Shown here in pieces: positions 39,465 to 46,059 of a stretch of DNA of 64,000 nt. Origin of the DNA: Clostridia bacterium (GTDB taxonomy: Bacteria > Bacillota > Clostridia > Oscillospirales > Acutalibacteraceae); NCBI GenBank assembly GCA_017618135.1, contig JAFZUV010000002.1, forward strand, positions 62,001 through 126,000. Reading direction: 5' to 3'. The notes under the pieces are model-generated. The model had not been told where the DNA came from. It saw nothing but the letters and a program-made list of their open reading frames with translations, and did not search any database. Every line of letters starts with the position of its first letter. The first letter of the stretch is position 1. A program made the translations under genes and the position numbers.

Positions 39465-40946
39465 ATGAAAAAACAATTACAAAAACTTTTAGCGGTAGTA
39501 TTATTAATAATTATGATTTTGTCGGTATTATCCGTCATACCATTTACGGCATTTGCTGATTCTTTTAGTTACAATACTGAAATATTTTCCATAGAACCAT
39601 CCTCGTTACCAAATTGCTTATCAATTAATTGCTATCTAAATTTTTCAGTTGTTAACTATGATAGCGTAGGATTGGAAATAGTAAAAAACGGGGTAACGGT
39701 TTTATTTGATACCGACGCTCTTTTAGATTGTCTGTGCACAACGACCATTGATTTTGATTGGACAAATTTAATGGGATATGGAGACGGAGAATTTGTATTC
39801 TATATTTGCTCATGTAAAAAATTGCAAAATGGCGATGTTTCATGCTCCAGATTATCTGCGGGTTTTAAGTATTCAGTTAAGGTAGACGATCTGGTTAAAA
39901 CATCCTACTCAGGCAAGTGCGGAGCTAATCTTCAATGGAATATTGACACTAAAGGAACACTGAGAATTTTCGGTGAAGGTGACATGGAAGATTATCTCAA
40001 TAACAGTGCGATTGGTACCGCTCCATGGCTTAAATATTATAGTCTGATAAAAAAGATTATTGTTGAAGAAGGGGTTACCGGCATAGGAGATTATTCGTTT
40101 TATTGTTGTCTTGGCTGGAATGTGACAGAAGTATCATTGCCAAACTCGTTAGAGAGAATAGGCAAAATTGCATTTTATGGCTGTCTGAAATCAGGGGAAA
40201 TAGTAATACCGAAAAATGTCAAGCAGATAGGCGAAAGGGCATTTAAGTTCTGCAAAGGAACTATCTATGCTCCATATGGTATAGGTTATGATTTTAGCGA
40301 CGATTCATCTGAAAATTTATCATTGGTGTATTATTATCCCGAGCCCGAAGAAGATACACCTCAAATAGTAGTAGAAAGCAAAAAAGCAAGAGCCGGCAAA
40401 ACGGTTGATGTAAATATCAGTCTTAAGAACAACCCCGGAATTACATCGGCTAAAATTAAAGTTTATTTTCCGGCAGGACTTACCCTTGAGGATGTAAACT
40501 TCGGTGATATCGGCGGTCAGACAATGATGTCGGAATCGTGGAACAGTCCGGTAACGCTTAACTGGTTTATCGGCAACAAAGATTTAAAGGATACCGATAT
40601 AACTTTTGCCACGCTTACCTTTAAGTTAGCTGATGATATAGAAACAGGCGCAAAGGAGATAGGTATTGAGTTTGACCCGGACGATATCTTTGATATTGCA
40701 AACAATGTAATAGATTTTGTGGCTGTCGGAGGAGAAATAGAAGTAATAGGATACGAGCCGGGTGATATAAGCGACGACGGCAAGGTTAATAACCAAGACC
40801 TTGTACTTCTGTTCCAATACCTTTCAGGTTGGGATGTTACGGTAAACCAAGCGGCGGTTGATGTAAACGGCGACGGTTCGGTGGATAACATAGATTTAAT
40901 AAGACTGTTCCAGTATCTGTGCGGTTGGGCTGTAGACATATTTTGA
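39465..40946 (+). CDS. Secreted BspA-type LRR protein with cohesin-like and dockerin domains
   Basis: The 493-residue protein has a Sec signal peptide (1-31, cleavage after AFA), a Cys-containing N-terminal region (32-145), a short BspA-type leucine-rich region (about 146-270, with LYKLIKKIIVEEGVT-like and VSLPNSLERIGKIAF-like repeats), a cohesin-like beta domain (about 298-428) and a C-terminal type I dockerin (433-488) with two calcium-binding loops, DISDDGKVNNQD and DVNGDGSVDNID, each followed by LFQYL. A dockerin anchors proteins to cohesins of scaffoldins on the cell surface; having both partners in one chain suggests an adaptor. No catalytic domain. It is more AT-rich in the first two thirds than its neighbours, which may reflect transfer. 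Confidence 0.87.
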   Translation: MKKQLQKLLAVVLLIIMILSVLSVIPFTAFADSFSYNTEIFSIEPSSLPNCLSINCYLNFSVVNYDSVGLEIVKNGVTVLFDTDALLDCLCTTTIDFDWTNLMGYGDGEFVFYICSCKKLQNGDVSCSRLSAGFKYSVKVDDLVKTSYSGKCGANLQWNIDTKGTLRIFGEGDMEDYLNNSAIGTAPWLKYYSLIKKIIVEEGVTGIGDYSFYCCLGWNVTEVSLPNSLERIGKIAFYGCLKSGEIVIPKNVKQIGERAFKFCKGTIYAPYGIGYDFSDDSSENLSLVYYYPEPEEDTPQIVVESKKARAGKTVDVNISLKNNPGITSAKIKVYFPAGLTLEDVNFGDIGGQTMMSESWNSPVTLNWFIGNKDLKDTDITFATLTFKLADDIETGAKEIGIEFDPDDIFDIANNVIDFVAVGGEIEVIGYEPGDISDDGKVNNQDLVLLFQYLSGWDVTVNQAAVDVNGDGSVDNIDLIRLFQYLCGWAVDIF

Positions 40947-40985
40947 TAAAAAAACTCACCCGGCAAGGGCAACCTTGCCGGGTGA
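40946..40985 (-). terminator. Intrinsic terminator of the phosphorelay operon
   Basis: A perfect 13-bp stem (40956-40968 with 40973-40985) closes a four-base loop. On the minus strand it is followed by GTTTTTTTATC, the end of the HPt-gene transcript. The plus-strand side has only TATTATGTTT, so it is weaker for the dockerin gene. Confidence 0.88.
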
Positions 40986-41016: not shown

Positions 41017-41358
41017 CTACTTACAAAGCTCTTTAAGCTTGTTACCGTTTTTGATTATACTGCCGAGTAATTCGGTATAATCGGTATCTGTATCTGCGCG
41101 GAGCAATTCCGTTATTTGAGCTGTCGGCTCATAAATCGGGGTTACGGACAGGTTGCCGAACACTCCTTTTATTGAATGCGCCGTCTCAAAAGCGGTTTTA
41201 TAATCCTTTTGCTCAACGGCGGTTTTAAGGAGGTCAAAATCGGTAGAGTCCGCCGCTTTTTTTACAAGCTTTAAATAAAAATCCTCATCATTAAGGCAAC
41301 GCGCCAGCCCCTCTTCAACATTTGCACCGAATTCCTTTAATGCGTTTATTGAAAGCAT
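41017..41358 (-). CDS. Histidine phosphotransfer (HPt) protein
   Basis: A 113-residue all-helical HPt domain with the phospho-accepting His61 in the motif AHSIKGVFGNL. Such proteins carry phosphate between the receiver domain of a hybrid kinase and a response regulator. It follows the hybrid kinase gene after two bases, and an AAGGAG sequence (inside the kinase's last codons) precedes it on neither side; the ATG is preceded instead by its own GGAGA region upstream of the kinase stop or is reached by coupling. Gene order on the transcript is REC-EAL protein, permease-kinase, HPt. Confidence 0.92.
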   Translation of the reverse strand: MLSINALKEFGANVEEGLARCLNDEDFYLKLVKKAADSTDFDLLKTAVEQKDYKTAFETAHSIKGVFGNLSVTPIYEPTAQITELLRADTDTDYTELLGSIIKNGNKLKELCK

Positions 41359-41360
41359 TT

Positions 41361-44267
41361 CTATTCTCCTTTTTTAAGATTTCGTTTTAGCGTCGCGGTC
41401 ATTTCCTTTATTTCTATCGGTTTGGCAATGTAATCGTCCATACCGGCTTCCTTTGTTCTTTTAATGTCCTCCGCAAAAACATTGGCTGTCATTGCGATTA
41501 TCGGAAGTTTTCCTTTGATTCCTTGTAAACTGCGGATTGTTTTAGTCGCGTCAAGCCCGTTCATAACCGGCATCTGCACATCCATAAGTACGGCGCCAAA
41601 CTCGTCGTCCTCAGCATTGGCAATAATATCGACCGCCATTTGACCGTTTTCCGCGGTCACCACATTAAAGCCCATATTTGTAAGTAGCATTTGAGCGATT
41701 TCTATATTTATGGGGTTGTCGTCAACAAGCAGAACCGTCATACCGCTGTAATCAACATTATCGGATGCGTCATCTTCCGCTGTCGCCGACTCAACTTCAT
41801 CCGCTATCGGCAATAAGAGGGTAATTTCAAACCGGGTGCCTTTGCCCTTTTCGGAGGTTACAGAAATTTCGCCGCCCATAAGGTCAACAAGATCCTTAGT
41901 AATCGACATACCGAGTCCGGTACCCTGAATTTCGTTTACTTCGCGCGTTTTTTCGCGTTCAAAAGCCTCAAAAATATGCTTGCGGAATTCTTCACTCATT
42001 CCGATACCGGTATCCGAAACGGTGATCATATAAACGCCTGAGTTGTCCCTGCGCGAGTTTTCGGTCAAATTGACCGTTACACTGCCGCCGGATTTTGTAA
42101 ATTTTATAGAGTTTGAAATGAGATTTAAAAGTATACGGTTAATGCGTTTCTCATCACAAACGGCAAATGGGTCATCAACATCTGTATTTACAACAAAGTC
42201 TATGCCTTTCTGCTCTGCCTGATTCAGGAAAATATCATAAACTCCGCGCATCATATTTTTAAGGTCGCAGGGCGCGGTTTGCAGTTCAACCTTTCCGCTT
42301 TCAATGCGGCTCATATCAAGTATATCGTTTATAAGCGCAAGTAAATGCTTGCTTGAATAATCTATCTTGCTTAAATAATCATGTGCATCGTCAGGCAGAT
42401 TTTTGCTTTCAAGAGCTAAGGCCGTATAGCCGGTTATGGCGTTCATCGGCGTTCTGATGTCGTGACTCATACTTGAAAGAAAGGTGCTTTTTGCCGCGCT
42501 TATTTCTTCCGCGCGCAATCGCTCGGTTTCAAGTTGTTTTTCCCGCTTTTTGATAATCGAAAAAATGCTGAACACCATAAGCACCGAAGCCGTTACCATA
42601 GCCATCTGTATTATGATATTTCTTGTTACCATTGAGCCAAACTCATAAATACGACCGTCAATATACTCTTCGGTTTCGGTCGCAAAAGAGTCGGAAGTCA
42701 TATCAATTCCCGCTTCGGATAACTGCTCTGAGTAAACGCCGTTTACATCGTTTGCTATATCTTCCGCCTCGTTTACGGTGAGCTTATATATCCACACAAC
42801 CGAAATAGTCACAATAATCAGCAGTAAAGCTATCCAAACGACCTCGCTTTTTCCAAAACGGCGGCTTTTATCCTTCTGTATTATTATGCGGAAAATCGCA
42901 ATACCCAGTATGCTCCAGACAACGAGAGCAAGATAAGATTCCGTTGCAAATGAACTACTGCCCAGAAAGTCCGGTATAATATACATAAACACGAACAGCA
43001 TCGAGATTACGGTACCGACAGAGCCGAAAATTTTTAAGGAAGTCTTTTTTTCACGCCGGCCGGTAACAAACGCCGATATGGAAACATAAGCGTAAACTAT
43101 TGAAGCACCGATGGTGGTAACATCAACAATCCAGCCTATTGCTGTTCTGCCGAGCGTGGGCACCAAGGCGGATATGGCGGCTGTGACAGTAAGGGCGAAA
43201 ACGGGTGTGCCGCGCGCCGACAGTGTGCAGAATTTTTTGGGCAATATACCGTCTTGCGACATAGCAAAAACAAGGCGGCTTATAGCCACAAGATTTGCTG
43301 TTATTCCGGTTATGATGCCGCTGAACGCCGATATTGCAAGCACGGTAAGTCCGGTGTTTCCGAGAACCCGCTTTGCTTCAAAGAATGTCGGTATAGACCG
43401 TATACCGGAATTGTTTGATAAATCCTTTATGTATTCGTACCAACTGCCATAACCGTCCGGCAAGGCGTTCGCCGCGATAAGGGTGAGCATTGTATATGCA
43501 ACCACGCCGGCAAGCAAAGCCAGTGTAATAATCGGCAACAGTTTTTTAGTATTGAATTTCATTTCAGCGGTTGAGTGCGAAATAGATTCAAAGCCTATAA
43601 ACGCCCAAGGCGCCAATATGACAAGCGAAACCACCTGAACCGCCGGATCACCGCTTGCAAACAAGGGGGCTTTAAATACGACGCCGCCCTTTAAAAGCAC
43701 GGAAATAAACACCGTAATAATGCCGACAATCAAAAATAACGCCATAACCGTTTGAACAATTTTGAGTACTGCGCCGCCGAGAACACATACAAGCCAACCG
43801 AGAACAATTACGGCGGTCGATAACAGCAATTCGCCGGAATAAACGGTATATCCCGCCAAGGTGTAGCTCATGCCAACGCAAAAAACATTGCCGAAAATAC
43901 AGCGTATTATTATGGAAAGCGCGGTAGCGTTTGCCCAAATAATAGCGGCGTAAGTGAGAAGAAGCAGCCAGGCGCACAAAAAGCCGTGGTCGCGCCCGAG
44001 TGCCGCGCCGGCATAGGTGTAAGCACCGCCGGGGGAGGTATGGCGTTTCATAAGCAAATAATAGTTAACACCGATTATAAGCATTACCACTGCGCCTAAA
44101 AAAATGCCGATAGCAGTGCCCAAGGGTCCGGCTAACGGTAAAAATGTTGTTCCGGGCATAACAAACGCGCCCCAGCCGACACTGCAACCAAAGGCTAACG
44201 CCCAAACAGAGAGCGGAGAAAGATATTTTTTAAGTACAATATGATTTCGACAGTTGTCTGTTCTCAC
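41361..44267 (-). CDS. Amino-acid permease fused to hybrid sensor histidine kinase
   Basis: One uninterrupted 968-residue frame. Residues 15-465 form an APC-superfamily amino-acid/polyamine permease with about 12 hydrophobic segments, including the TM1 motif [13 protein letters not shown] and a TM6-like [17 protein letters not shown]. Then come a helix (about 475-493), an extracytoplasmic loop (494-550), another helix (551-571) and a coiled region. The kinase follows: HisKA with His602 in [12 protein letters not shown] box with Asn715, DTGIG at 752-756, GTGLGMSI at 782-789, and a receiver domain (about 843-960) with Asp849-Asp850 and phospho-acceptor Asp896. GTG start with AAAGGATG upstream. 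Transporter-linked kinases such as CbrA are known with sodium-solute-symporter domains; an APC version is much less familiar. Ligand unknown. Confidence 0.93.
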
Positions 44268-44286: not shown

Positions 44287-45993
44287 TTAAAGGTTATTTA
44301 AATACCTTTTAATATGTTCTTCAAACTCTTCGGCAGGCAGGGGCTTTGAAAAATAGTAACCTTGAATAATATCACAGCCTATCGCTTTAAGAGCCAGATA
44401 TTGTTCCCCGGTTTCAACGCCCTCCGCCACGGTGGGAACATGCAGATATTTAGCAATGTCTATCATAATTTCAAGGAGTCGCAGATCTTTTTTATCCTTA
44501 AAAGCCGAGCGTATAAACGCCATATCAAGTTTGAGCACATCTATCGGTAACGAGGAAATCATATTAAGAGACGAATATCCGCTGCCGAAATCATCCATTT
44601 CTATACGGAAGCCATACTCACGCAGTCTGTCAAGTGTTTCAATTATACTTTTAGAGTCCTCACTGTAAGCCGATTCGGTTATTTCAAGAAATAAATCCTT
44701 TGCCTTTAACCCGTTTGAATTACAGATTGCCACCAATTCGTCAACCAGAGAAGGATTATAAAAATCTATTCTTGAAATATTTACAGATACGGGTACTATG
44801 ACGCCGTATTTCTTTTCCCATTCCGCAATCAAATGTGCCGTTTGATTCCATACATATTTATCAAGCTGTTCAATAAGACCGTTACTTTCAAAAAGCGGTA
44901 TGAACACACCGGGTGATACCATACCGTACTTGGGATGGGACCAACGAACAAGGGCTTCGGCACTCGAAAGAACCGGATTTTCACCTTTTATATTGTACTT
45001 AGGTTGAAAAAACACCTTAAACTGATTGTCTTTAAGAGCAGTCGGGAAATCGTCAATCAGTTGTTCCTCGAAAAGCTCTTTCTCGTAAAGCGATACATCA
45101 TAAAAGCCTATATTGTTTGAAAAACTGCCGCGCAGTTTGTTGGCGGCGGTACGAGCGCGGTCAAATCTCGCCGCGACATCCAGATTTCGGTCAACATTTT
45201 CATATATGCCTATGCGAAGGCGTATTTTGTTATCTCTGAACACTTCACCCGATAATGAGTCCTCAGCCGTCTTCAGAATCGATTTATAATCGTCCTGATG
45301 AGGCAAGTACATTAAAAATGTGTCCGCACCGCTTCTGCATACCATACCGCCTTTCTCGGTGACTATTGCCTTAAGGCAGGCGGCCACGGTTTTCAGCACC
45401 TCATTTCCGTATGCGGCGCCGAAGCGTTCATTTATCATATGGAAATGATAAATATCTATAAGTGCGGCATCCATTTCGGTATCTTTATGAAAATGGTCAA
45501 GCTGTACAGCATAACGGTTAAAATAATGGATATTATAAAGACCTGTAAGCCGGTCACGCTCAGTTGCGCTTATAATCCGGCGATCTTCGTTCAGCTCTAT
45601 TGTTTTTCTTACACGGGCGAGCACTATTTCTGCGTCCGGATAGGGCTTTGAAATAAAATCGCTGGCGCCCATGTGCAGGCTTCTCGCCTCGCTCTCTCGG
45701 TCGGAGGTTGCGACGATTACCGGAATATGAGCAAGCTCGGGTGAGGTGCGGATGAATTTAAGCACTTCAAATCCGTCCATAACAGGCATTACAATATCGA
45801 GCAAAACAAGAGACAAAGTATCTTTGTTTTCCTCTATTTTGTTTATTGCCTGTTTTCCGTCTTCCGCAAATATAAGGTCATATTTATCCTCAAAAAGATT
45901 GCCGAGTATTTCTCGGTTGATGAATTCATCATCCGCTATCAGTATCTGTCTTTTTCCGTTTACCGAAAAAAATCCCTTACTGTCTTTTTGCAT
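44287..45993 (-). CDS. Response regulator with REC, degenerate GGDEF and EAL domains
   Basis: The 568-residue protein has a receiver domain (about 15-130, Asp66 as phospho-acceptor), a GGDEF-fold domain (about 145-305) whose catalytic motif is RSGAD at 220-224 and so is very unlikely to make c-di-GMP, and an EAL domain (about 315-560) that keeps Glu346 of EAL, EITES, DDFGSG at 467-472, KLD and EGVET. It is therefore a probable c-di-GMP phosphodiesterase switched by phosphorylation. The ATG at 45993 after AGAGGTAA is the start; the longer frame to 46110 runs through the promoter. First gene of the phosphorelay operon. Confidence 0.92.
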
Positions 45994-46030: not shown

Positions 46031-46059
46031 ATTATAACTAAGGACAGTAAGCTTTTCAA
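46031..46059 (-). promoter_or_regulatory. Promoter of the phosphorelay operon
   Basis: Minus-strand -35 TTGAAA (46059-46054) and -10 TATAAT (46036-46031) with 17-base spacing, about 40 bases before the start codon at 45993. Confidence 0.78.

Follow-up and report, generated by a model that had tools for sequence, protein, structure and literature searches.

A putative receptor class that joins the amino-acid permease fold to histidine kinases and c-di-GMP enzymes

The stretch of DNA considered here (the window) comprises 64,000 nucleotides of a Clostridia bacterium of the Acutalibacteraceae (assembly GCA_017618135.1, contig JAFZUV010000002.1, positions 62,001 to 126,000). It carries a gene whose product holds an APC-type amino-acid permease fold, a two-helix connector and a hybrid histidine kinase (HK) in one chain. 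This protein is probably an APC-fold receptor that feeds a His-Asp-His-Asp phosphorelay leading to turnover of cyclic diguanosine monophosphate (c-di-GMP), with an APC domain that was recruited once and then recombined. Computed features carry this reading: architecture, conservation, a single APC clade, several outputs, gene neighbourhood and intact catalytic motifs.

Permease fold and kinase in one chain

The first-pass annotation, made from the sequence alone, described a single 968-codon frame with an APC permease, a two-helix segment, HisKA (His602), an ATPase and a receiver (Asp896). Pfam, alignment and an AlphaFold2 model all agree with this description (Table 1). The open frame lies on the minus strand, and the plus strand of 41361-44267 holds many stops in the same register. 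All Pfam matches of the protein, listed to an E-value of 0.001, exceed their curated cut-offs: AA_permease_2 covers residues 16-431 (1e-24; 87.7 bits, cut-off 27) and AA_permease residues 27-451 (6.4e-11; 42 bits, cut-off 24.6), followed by HisKA (9.5e-20), HATPase_c (1.8e-28) and Response_reg (2.2e-25).

Table 1. The APC-kinase gene, its domains and its neighbours, in positions of the window.
Feature	Positions	Strand	Details
Whole APC-connector-HisKA-HATPase-REC gene	41361..44267	-	968 amino acids; GTG start at 44267, stop at 41361
APC permease-fold domain (probable sensor)	42873..44222	-	residues 16-465; 12 transmembrane helices; LeuT fold
Two-helix connector	42486..42860	-	residues 470-594; AlphaFold2 helices 476-518 and 526-594
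HisKA dimerisation/phosphoacceptor domain, His602	42294..42494	-	Pfam PF00512, residues 592-658
HATPase_c catalytic domain	41811..42155	-	Pfam PF02518, residues 705-819
Receiver (REC) domain, Asp896	41388..41735	-	Pfam PF00072, residues 845-960
Histidine phosphotransfer (HPt) protein	41017..41358	-	113 amino acids; 2 bases downstream of the APC-kinase gene; Pfam Hpt 1.2e-7, over cut-off
REC-GGDEF-EAL response regulator	44287..45993	-	19 bases upstream of the APC-kinase gene
Sigma-70-like promoter	46031..46059	-	TTGAAA-17-TATAAT ahead of the three genes; consensus match only, 11 of 12
Intrinsic terminator	40956..40985	-	past the HPt gene; 13-pair stem and T run

The AlphaFold2 model (predicted local distance difference test score 86.2, predicted template-modelling score 0.85) shows a 12-helix permease with an AdiC-like LeuT fold, in which transmembrane helices (TM) 1 and 6 are broken, followed by the two connector helices. 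The second of these runs unbroken from the membrane up to the start of HisKA. The cytoplasmic part is a hybrid histidine kinase with HisKA, HATPase and receiver, each with its catalytic residues. In all 15 aligned rows, the window protein among them, His602 and Asp896 are invariant, as are N719, D752, G782 and G784 of the ATPase and D850, D896 and K949 of the receiver.

The two-helix segment, first described as sensor-like, appears to be so in shape only. It is missing from all seven free-standing permeases in the alignment. Its identity falls below that of both the APC and kinase parts in 6/6 pairs and is the lowest of the whole protein in five of them (the receiver is lower in the exception, L010/L011; L and G numbers denote loci and genomes), and its outer loop is absent in the aligned members L026 and L047. 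Because of this lower conservation and the missing loop, the segment looks like a connector, and its candidacy as the sensor is weakened.

These observations also bear on an alternative in which the permease is a passenger or anchor that takes up an unrelated substrate, while the true sensor is the loop of the connector or the kinase region in the cytoplasm. There is a precedent in CbrA, whose kinase is reported to be independent of its SLC5 domain, an intracellular signal being more likely (PMC7096432; this and the other published work is cited from excerpts). For the window protein, however, the Pfam matches include no PAS domain and no sensor domain of another cytoplasmic kind, and the APC part is what the kinase, GGDEF and HD-GYP fusions have in common. 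Together with the lower conservation of the connector, this makes the passenger explanation improbable.

One sensor clade and several outputs

The architecture recurs in other bacteria. Full-length fusions were found in at least 6 of 99 genomes selected as relatives, with a fragment carrying HD-GYP in another (G014), in at least 4 of 398 genomes drawn across the phylum and in at least 14 of 394 drawn across the order, where the two draws scored at most three candidates per genome and all three counts include the window's own genome. Among the matches listed by a genome scan, 80 loci were kept, and 13 of these (L036-L048) match along nearly the whole protein; the other 67 match in the kinase/receiver part, a few extending into some of the connector. 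The fusion-bearing taxa include Ruminococcus, Butyrivibrio, Selenomonadaceae, Quinella, Erysipelotrichaceae, one bin labelled Verrucomicrobia and other bins. For example, Butyrivibrio sp. MB2005 (L039), whose record has no metagenome-assembled genome label, carries the fusion.

Among the fetched loci there are at least 40 distinct proteins with an APC domain and an output (41 groups minus one made of locus-edge fragments of proteins already counted). They comprise 25 HK-REC, five HK-REC-REC, five HK without a visible receiver (one of which ends at a contig end), four GGDEF and one HD-GYP protein, and Pfam confirms the GGDEF and HD-GYP fusions. The possibility that an assembly error had wrongly joined a permease gene to a kinase gene, a danger already raised in the first-pass annotation, is extremely improbable in light of these proteins. 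The same architecture recurs on many separate contigs from many assemblies, Butyrivibrio sp. MB2005 included; the homologues share the connector between their permease and kinase parts; and the frame in the window is uninterrupted.

Several of these proteins show departures of their own. RVGGDEF is retained in three of the four APC-GGDEF proteins, and in the fourth (L192, 5088-7334) the motif is gone through an apparent frame break, either real or an assembly error. Four of the five HK-only proteins are encoded as tandem pairs, found in two genomes (L206, 393-5382; L207, 6504-11406) beside a gene for a CheB methylesterase domain, and these four have partly degenerate kinase boxes. Each pair is possibly a split sensor acting on the CheB-type regulator. 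At L048 (4054-13050), two full APC-HK-REC genes form a tandem whose ends overlap, and a hybrid kinase with SBP_bac_3 comes before them.

In a careful IQ-TREE analysis of 56 APC domains, the 39 complete fused domains occupy one side of a 100/100 branch, with the free-standing permeases on the other (17 of 37 free rows were used; the HD-GYP row was excluded, its APC part being cut by the contig start). Within the kinase fusions, the four GGDEF forms group together with 100/100 support. The attached kinases behave differently from their APC partners. In trees of a quick kind, which included 33 of the 35 APC-fused kinases, placing them among 110 other kinases requires seven label changes, four of them forced by starred branches. 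When nine control rows with a possibly cut 5' end were removed, leaving 101 other kinases, there were again seven changes, five of them forced. One starred group unites the five HK-REC-REC kinases with hybrid kinases encoded next to APC genes (for example at L045, L179, L184, L188 and L191), and the L048 kinase pair places near the neighbouring kinase of its own locus.

Within the limits of quick trees, one APC stock combined with several kinases is therefore the signature of a portable sensor. The APC-fused kinases do not form one group, and it looks as if the APC unit was recruited once and then re-plugged into different outputs. Kinase parts have apparently been exchanged locally, some of them taken from adjacent hybrid-kinase genes. 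A scan of 11 hybrid kinases beside APC genes for a shared sensor found SBP_bac_3 in two (L191, L048) and PAS in three (L184, L037, L176); the other six have no sensor domain, so the set gives no hint of a ligand.

The APC part is also under constraint similar to that of the kinase. Its ratio of nonsynonymous to synonymous substitution rates (dN/dS) is 0.10-0.21 in the eight of nine fused pairs for which it was computable, close to the kinase value, on rough estimates in which many dS values are high or not computable. In the tandem-type pair L117/L118, APC identity is 0.70 against 0.56 for the kinase. The APC part had first been proposed as either a sensory module or a flux-reporting transporter. 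The sensory role is now the probable one, given a domain that is common to kinase, GGDEF and HD-GYP fusions, roughly equals the kinase in conservation and forms its own clade; flux reporting is taken up below with the pocket.

Other systems couple transporter folds to signalling. In the SLC5/STAC kinases (CbrA, CrbS, RpuS), a solute transporter of the LeuT fold precedes a histidine kinase and gives a two-component system a nutrient input. The parallel with CbrA drawn in the first-pass annotation holds as an analogy and not as kinship: the fold here is APC (SLC7-like), APC families take the place of any sodium:solute symporter (SLC5/SSS) among the Pfam matches to E 0.001, and no PAS domain is among them. 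STAC is likewise absent from those matches, where the presence of a STAC model in Pfam is unconfirmed. CbrA has a four-helix STAC bundle, whereas the join in the AlphaFold2 model is a membrane hairpin with one long continuous helix. The outputs differ as well, since those of the APC fold also include GGDEF and HD-GYP.

Two further families combine a transporter-related fold with a kinase. KsAmt5 has a C-terminal histidine kinase behind an ammonium transporter fold (PMC10433425), and the 5TMR or S-component-fold kinases have modular HK, GGDEF and EAL outputs behind an ECF S-component fold (PMC11109136). Membership of either was rejected: neither an ammonium transporter domain nor a 5TMR domain is among the Pfam matches to E 0.001, and the fold is AdiC-like. 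Amino acid permeases are known as sensors in yeast Ssy1, a permease homologue that senses without transport (PMC6423903), and in bacterial LysP, which interacts with CadC (PMC12764776). These signal through separate proteins, in contrast to the fused kinase or cyclase here. AdiC, GkApcT and CAT (SLC7) are transporters without a signalling domain, and the pocket differs from theirs at the equivalents of GkApcT 40, 43, 119 and 321. As far as can be inferred by analogy, the APC-kinase may work like CbrA or Ssy1 while belonging to neither family.

The fusions are real and recurrent. With their several enzymatic outputs they look like a class of APC-fold receptors that is apparently undescribed, in line with the earlier suggestion that these transceptor kinases are a class of their own. 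The open-access literature showed no account of APC-HK, APC-GGDEF or APC-HD-GYP fusions, a weak absence that covers mostly titles and the starts of abstracts. Transporter-fold receptors fused to kinases are called rare, the cases being SLC5-STAC, Amt and S-component folds (PMC11109136, PMC10433425 and the CbrA preprint). The S-component-fold paper describes transceptors as rare, names cases from eukaryotes and treats CbrA separately (PMC11109136); the CbrA preprint terms CbrA a rare example. The excerpts of these papers make no mention of an APC-kinase. If the APC-fold class is sizeable, it would bring one of the major amino-acid transporter folds directly into signalling, and would tie nutrient sensing to c-di-GMP in bacteria from the rumen and from habitats like it. 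Its natural swaps of kinase, cyclase and phosphodiesterase modules make the question of transport versus sensing testable inside one family, and it would offer a portable sensor for engineering.

Binding pocket, ligand class and transport

Pocket positions were mapped through an alignment to GkApcT, with residue roles taken from PMC5803215, and the 39 fused rows were compared with the nearest 21 of the 37 free rows. Both forms retain W32, G33, N113, W221, R331, R374 and D382. W32, at the GkApcT Thr43 position, is found in 36/39 fused and 18/21 free rows, and W221, at the Phe231 position, in 39/39 and 18/21. We take W221, E227 and N113 to correspond to AdiC W202, E208 and N101. The first of these AdiC residues is named in PMC5803215.

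Six positions separate the fused clade from its free relatives. Position 29 is I in 18/21 free rows versus A or S in 33/39 fused rows; position 111 is P in 18/21 versus W in 34/39 (P111W); position 227 is D in 17/21 versus E in 37/39, the other two being D (D227E); position 230 is P in 21/21 versus S in 33/39 (P230S); position 231 is Q in 21/21 versus H in 27/39 (Q231H); and position 325, the GkApcT Met321 specificity position, is F in 21/21 versus N in 28/39 (F325N). The fused clade has thus lost two prolines, one in TM3 and one in TM6b. The GkApcT Glu115 and Lys191 positions do not discriminate between fused and free forms, since in both the commonest residues there include neither an acid nor a lysine. 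The pocket has thus been preserved yet retuned, and we read the changes as an altered ligand and perhaps altered transport dynamics.

It is plausible, if short of probable, that the APC domain is a true receptor and no longer a net transporter, converted once from an amino-acid or amine permease by a rebuilding of pocket and gate that cost it the TM3 and TM6b prolines. It would then be a prokaryotic counterpart of yeast Ssy1: a plug-in sensor that serves kinases, diguanylate cyclases and HD-GYP phosphodiesterases in several Bacillota classes. It would often have acquired its kinase from a hybrid-kinase gene next to it, and c-di-GMP would be an output that recurs. A possible but more doubtful reading is that the domain is a working transporter and reports its flux. 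In that case the substrate would still be moved, by a proton-driven or exchange mechanism, and cycling rather than occupancy alone would set kinase activity, as first proposed for CbrA. The glycine-rich TM1 motif pointed out in the first-pass annotation is indeed kept in its unwound form (G31-W32-G33), as is W221. An acidic residue always stands at the position of GkApcT Asp237 (E227), where Asp237Ala abolishes transport (PMC5803215), R331 is present in 34/39 fused rows, and CbrA is reported both to transport L-histidine and to signal (PMC7096432). Against flux reporting stand the loss of P230 and P111, so common in the nearest free permeases, and the difference at specificity position 325.

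The gene clusters of free relatives point to small amine-bearing solutes as the ligand class, and it is this class alone, not a substrate, that we would draw from them. At L200 (2256-9209), two free-standing APC permeases related to the fused receptors lie between xsc (sulfoacetaldehyde acetyltransferase, TIGR03457, 772 bits, cut-off 676) and an aminotransferase gene, and are likely taurine permeases. The taurine-cluster group of the pocket comparison has seven rows, of which those from G189 adjoin xsc. Some free-standing relatives thus probably carry taurine. Taurine was not transferred to the fused clade as a ligand, given the differences at positions 29, 111, 227, 230, 231 and 325. Three further free permeases (L202) lie near an aminotransferase gene and an alanine dehydrogenase gene. 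In the window's own genome (L198, contig C4, 2458-6723), a free-standing APC permease lies near an ornithine-cyclodeaminase-family gene and an Asp/Glu-racemase-like gene that scores just below its Pfam cut-off, neighbours that are a possible substrate hint for this paralogue.

Adjacent genes and the link to c-di-GMP

The genes for an HPt relay adjoin the APC-kinase gene on both sides, namely an HPt gene and, as the final response regulator, a REC-GGDEF-EAL gene. These neighbours, and with them the link to c-di-GMP, go beyond the content of the first-pass annotation. The candidate HPt phosphoacceptor is His61, within AHSIKG, and this histidine is retained in all eight aligned rows, that of the window included. 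The response regulator has strong Pfam matches (EAL 5e-64, REC 6e-22, GGDEF 1e-17); its open frame reaches 46110, and the ATG at 45993 was chosen as the likely start. The motif alignment shows a degenerate GGDEF motif for the window and for the neighbours at L036, L037, L038 and L045. The EAL motifs are intact in the same five and in the EAL stretch of L013.

On this anatomy and context, a pathway from kinase through relay to c-di-GMP is supported for the window. We infer its ligand class, signalling direction, phosphotransfer partners and effect on c-di-GMP as follows. The APC fold would be the ligand sensor of a one-piece receptor, in which the broken helices TM1 and TM6 enclose the binding site of a small amine-bearing solute (an amino acid or a relative), whose binding would alter the domain's conformation. 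TM13-TM14 would pass this change along the continuous helix to the HisKA dimerisation helices. Phosphate could then move from His602 to Asp896, on to His61 of the adjacent HPt protein and finally to the REC-GGDEF-EAL protein, where the receiver would accept it and the EAL domain would hydrolyse c-di-GMP. In evolutionary terms, the APC domain would have been recruited once from a permease, its pocket altered and the module then joined to several kinases and c-di-GMP enzymes.

The neighbourhood was compared within 3 kb between 14 APC-HK loci (the 13 scan loci and the window) and the 67 other HK loci of the same scan. EAL genes occur at 5/14 against 1/67 loci (Fisher p 4e-4, in a test that ignores relatedness, four of the five EAL-positive loci, namely the window and L036-L038, being kin), and at 4/12 against 1/42 where both flanks are full. 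GGDEF hits occur at 3/14 against 5/67.

Besides this kinship, several points weigh against a link to c-di-GMP through the relay. Most queries were genes of the window itself, and the flanks of many control loci are short. Of the 14 APC loci, nine lack an EAL gene in the 3 kb examined, and one APC-kinase branch pairs with CheB instead of EAL. HPt genes are only weakly enriched (5/14 against 7/67, p 0.03; 4/12 against 4/42 with full flanks), and the controls are about as rich in HD-GYP hits (2/14 against 7/67). A search of the window's own genome for a PilZ receptor gave no match. The same genome has seven GGDEF matches, six of them over cut-off, including that of the window.

Outside the Fisher test, REC-GGDEF-EAL genes are also found on further branches of the APC tree, at L186 (kin of L045), L187 and L191. 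At L191, an APC-GGDEF gene occurs together with HPt, REC-GGDEF-EAL and HK-REC-REC genes; judging from its domains, this module would write c-di-GMP directly, while the window appears to work via a relay. The partner at the Butyrivibrio locus L039 is a REC-GGDEF protein with an intact motif.

Candidate transcription signals flank the three signalling genes. Promoter-like sites such as the one upstream are not enriched over shuffles (13 observed, shuffle mean 11.5), and terminator-like sites number 18 against a shuffle mean of 6.4. Beyond the terminator stem lies a convergent plus-strand gene (39465-40946) for a 493-amino-acid protein that combines BspA-type leucine-rich repeats with cohesin and dockerin domains in a single chain.
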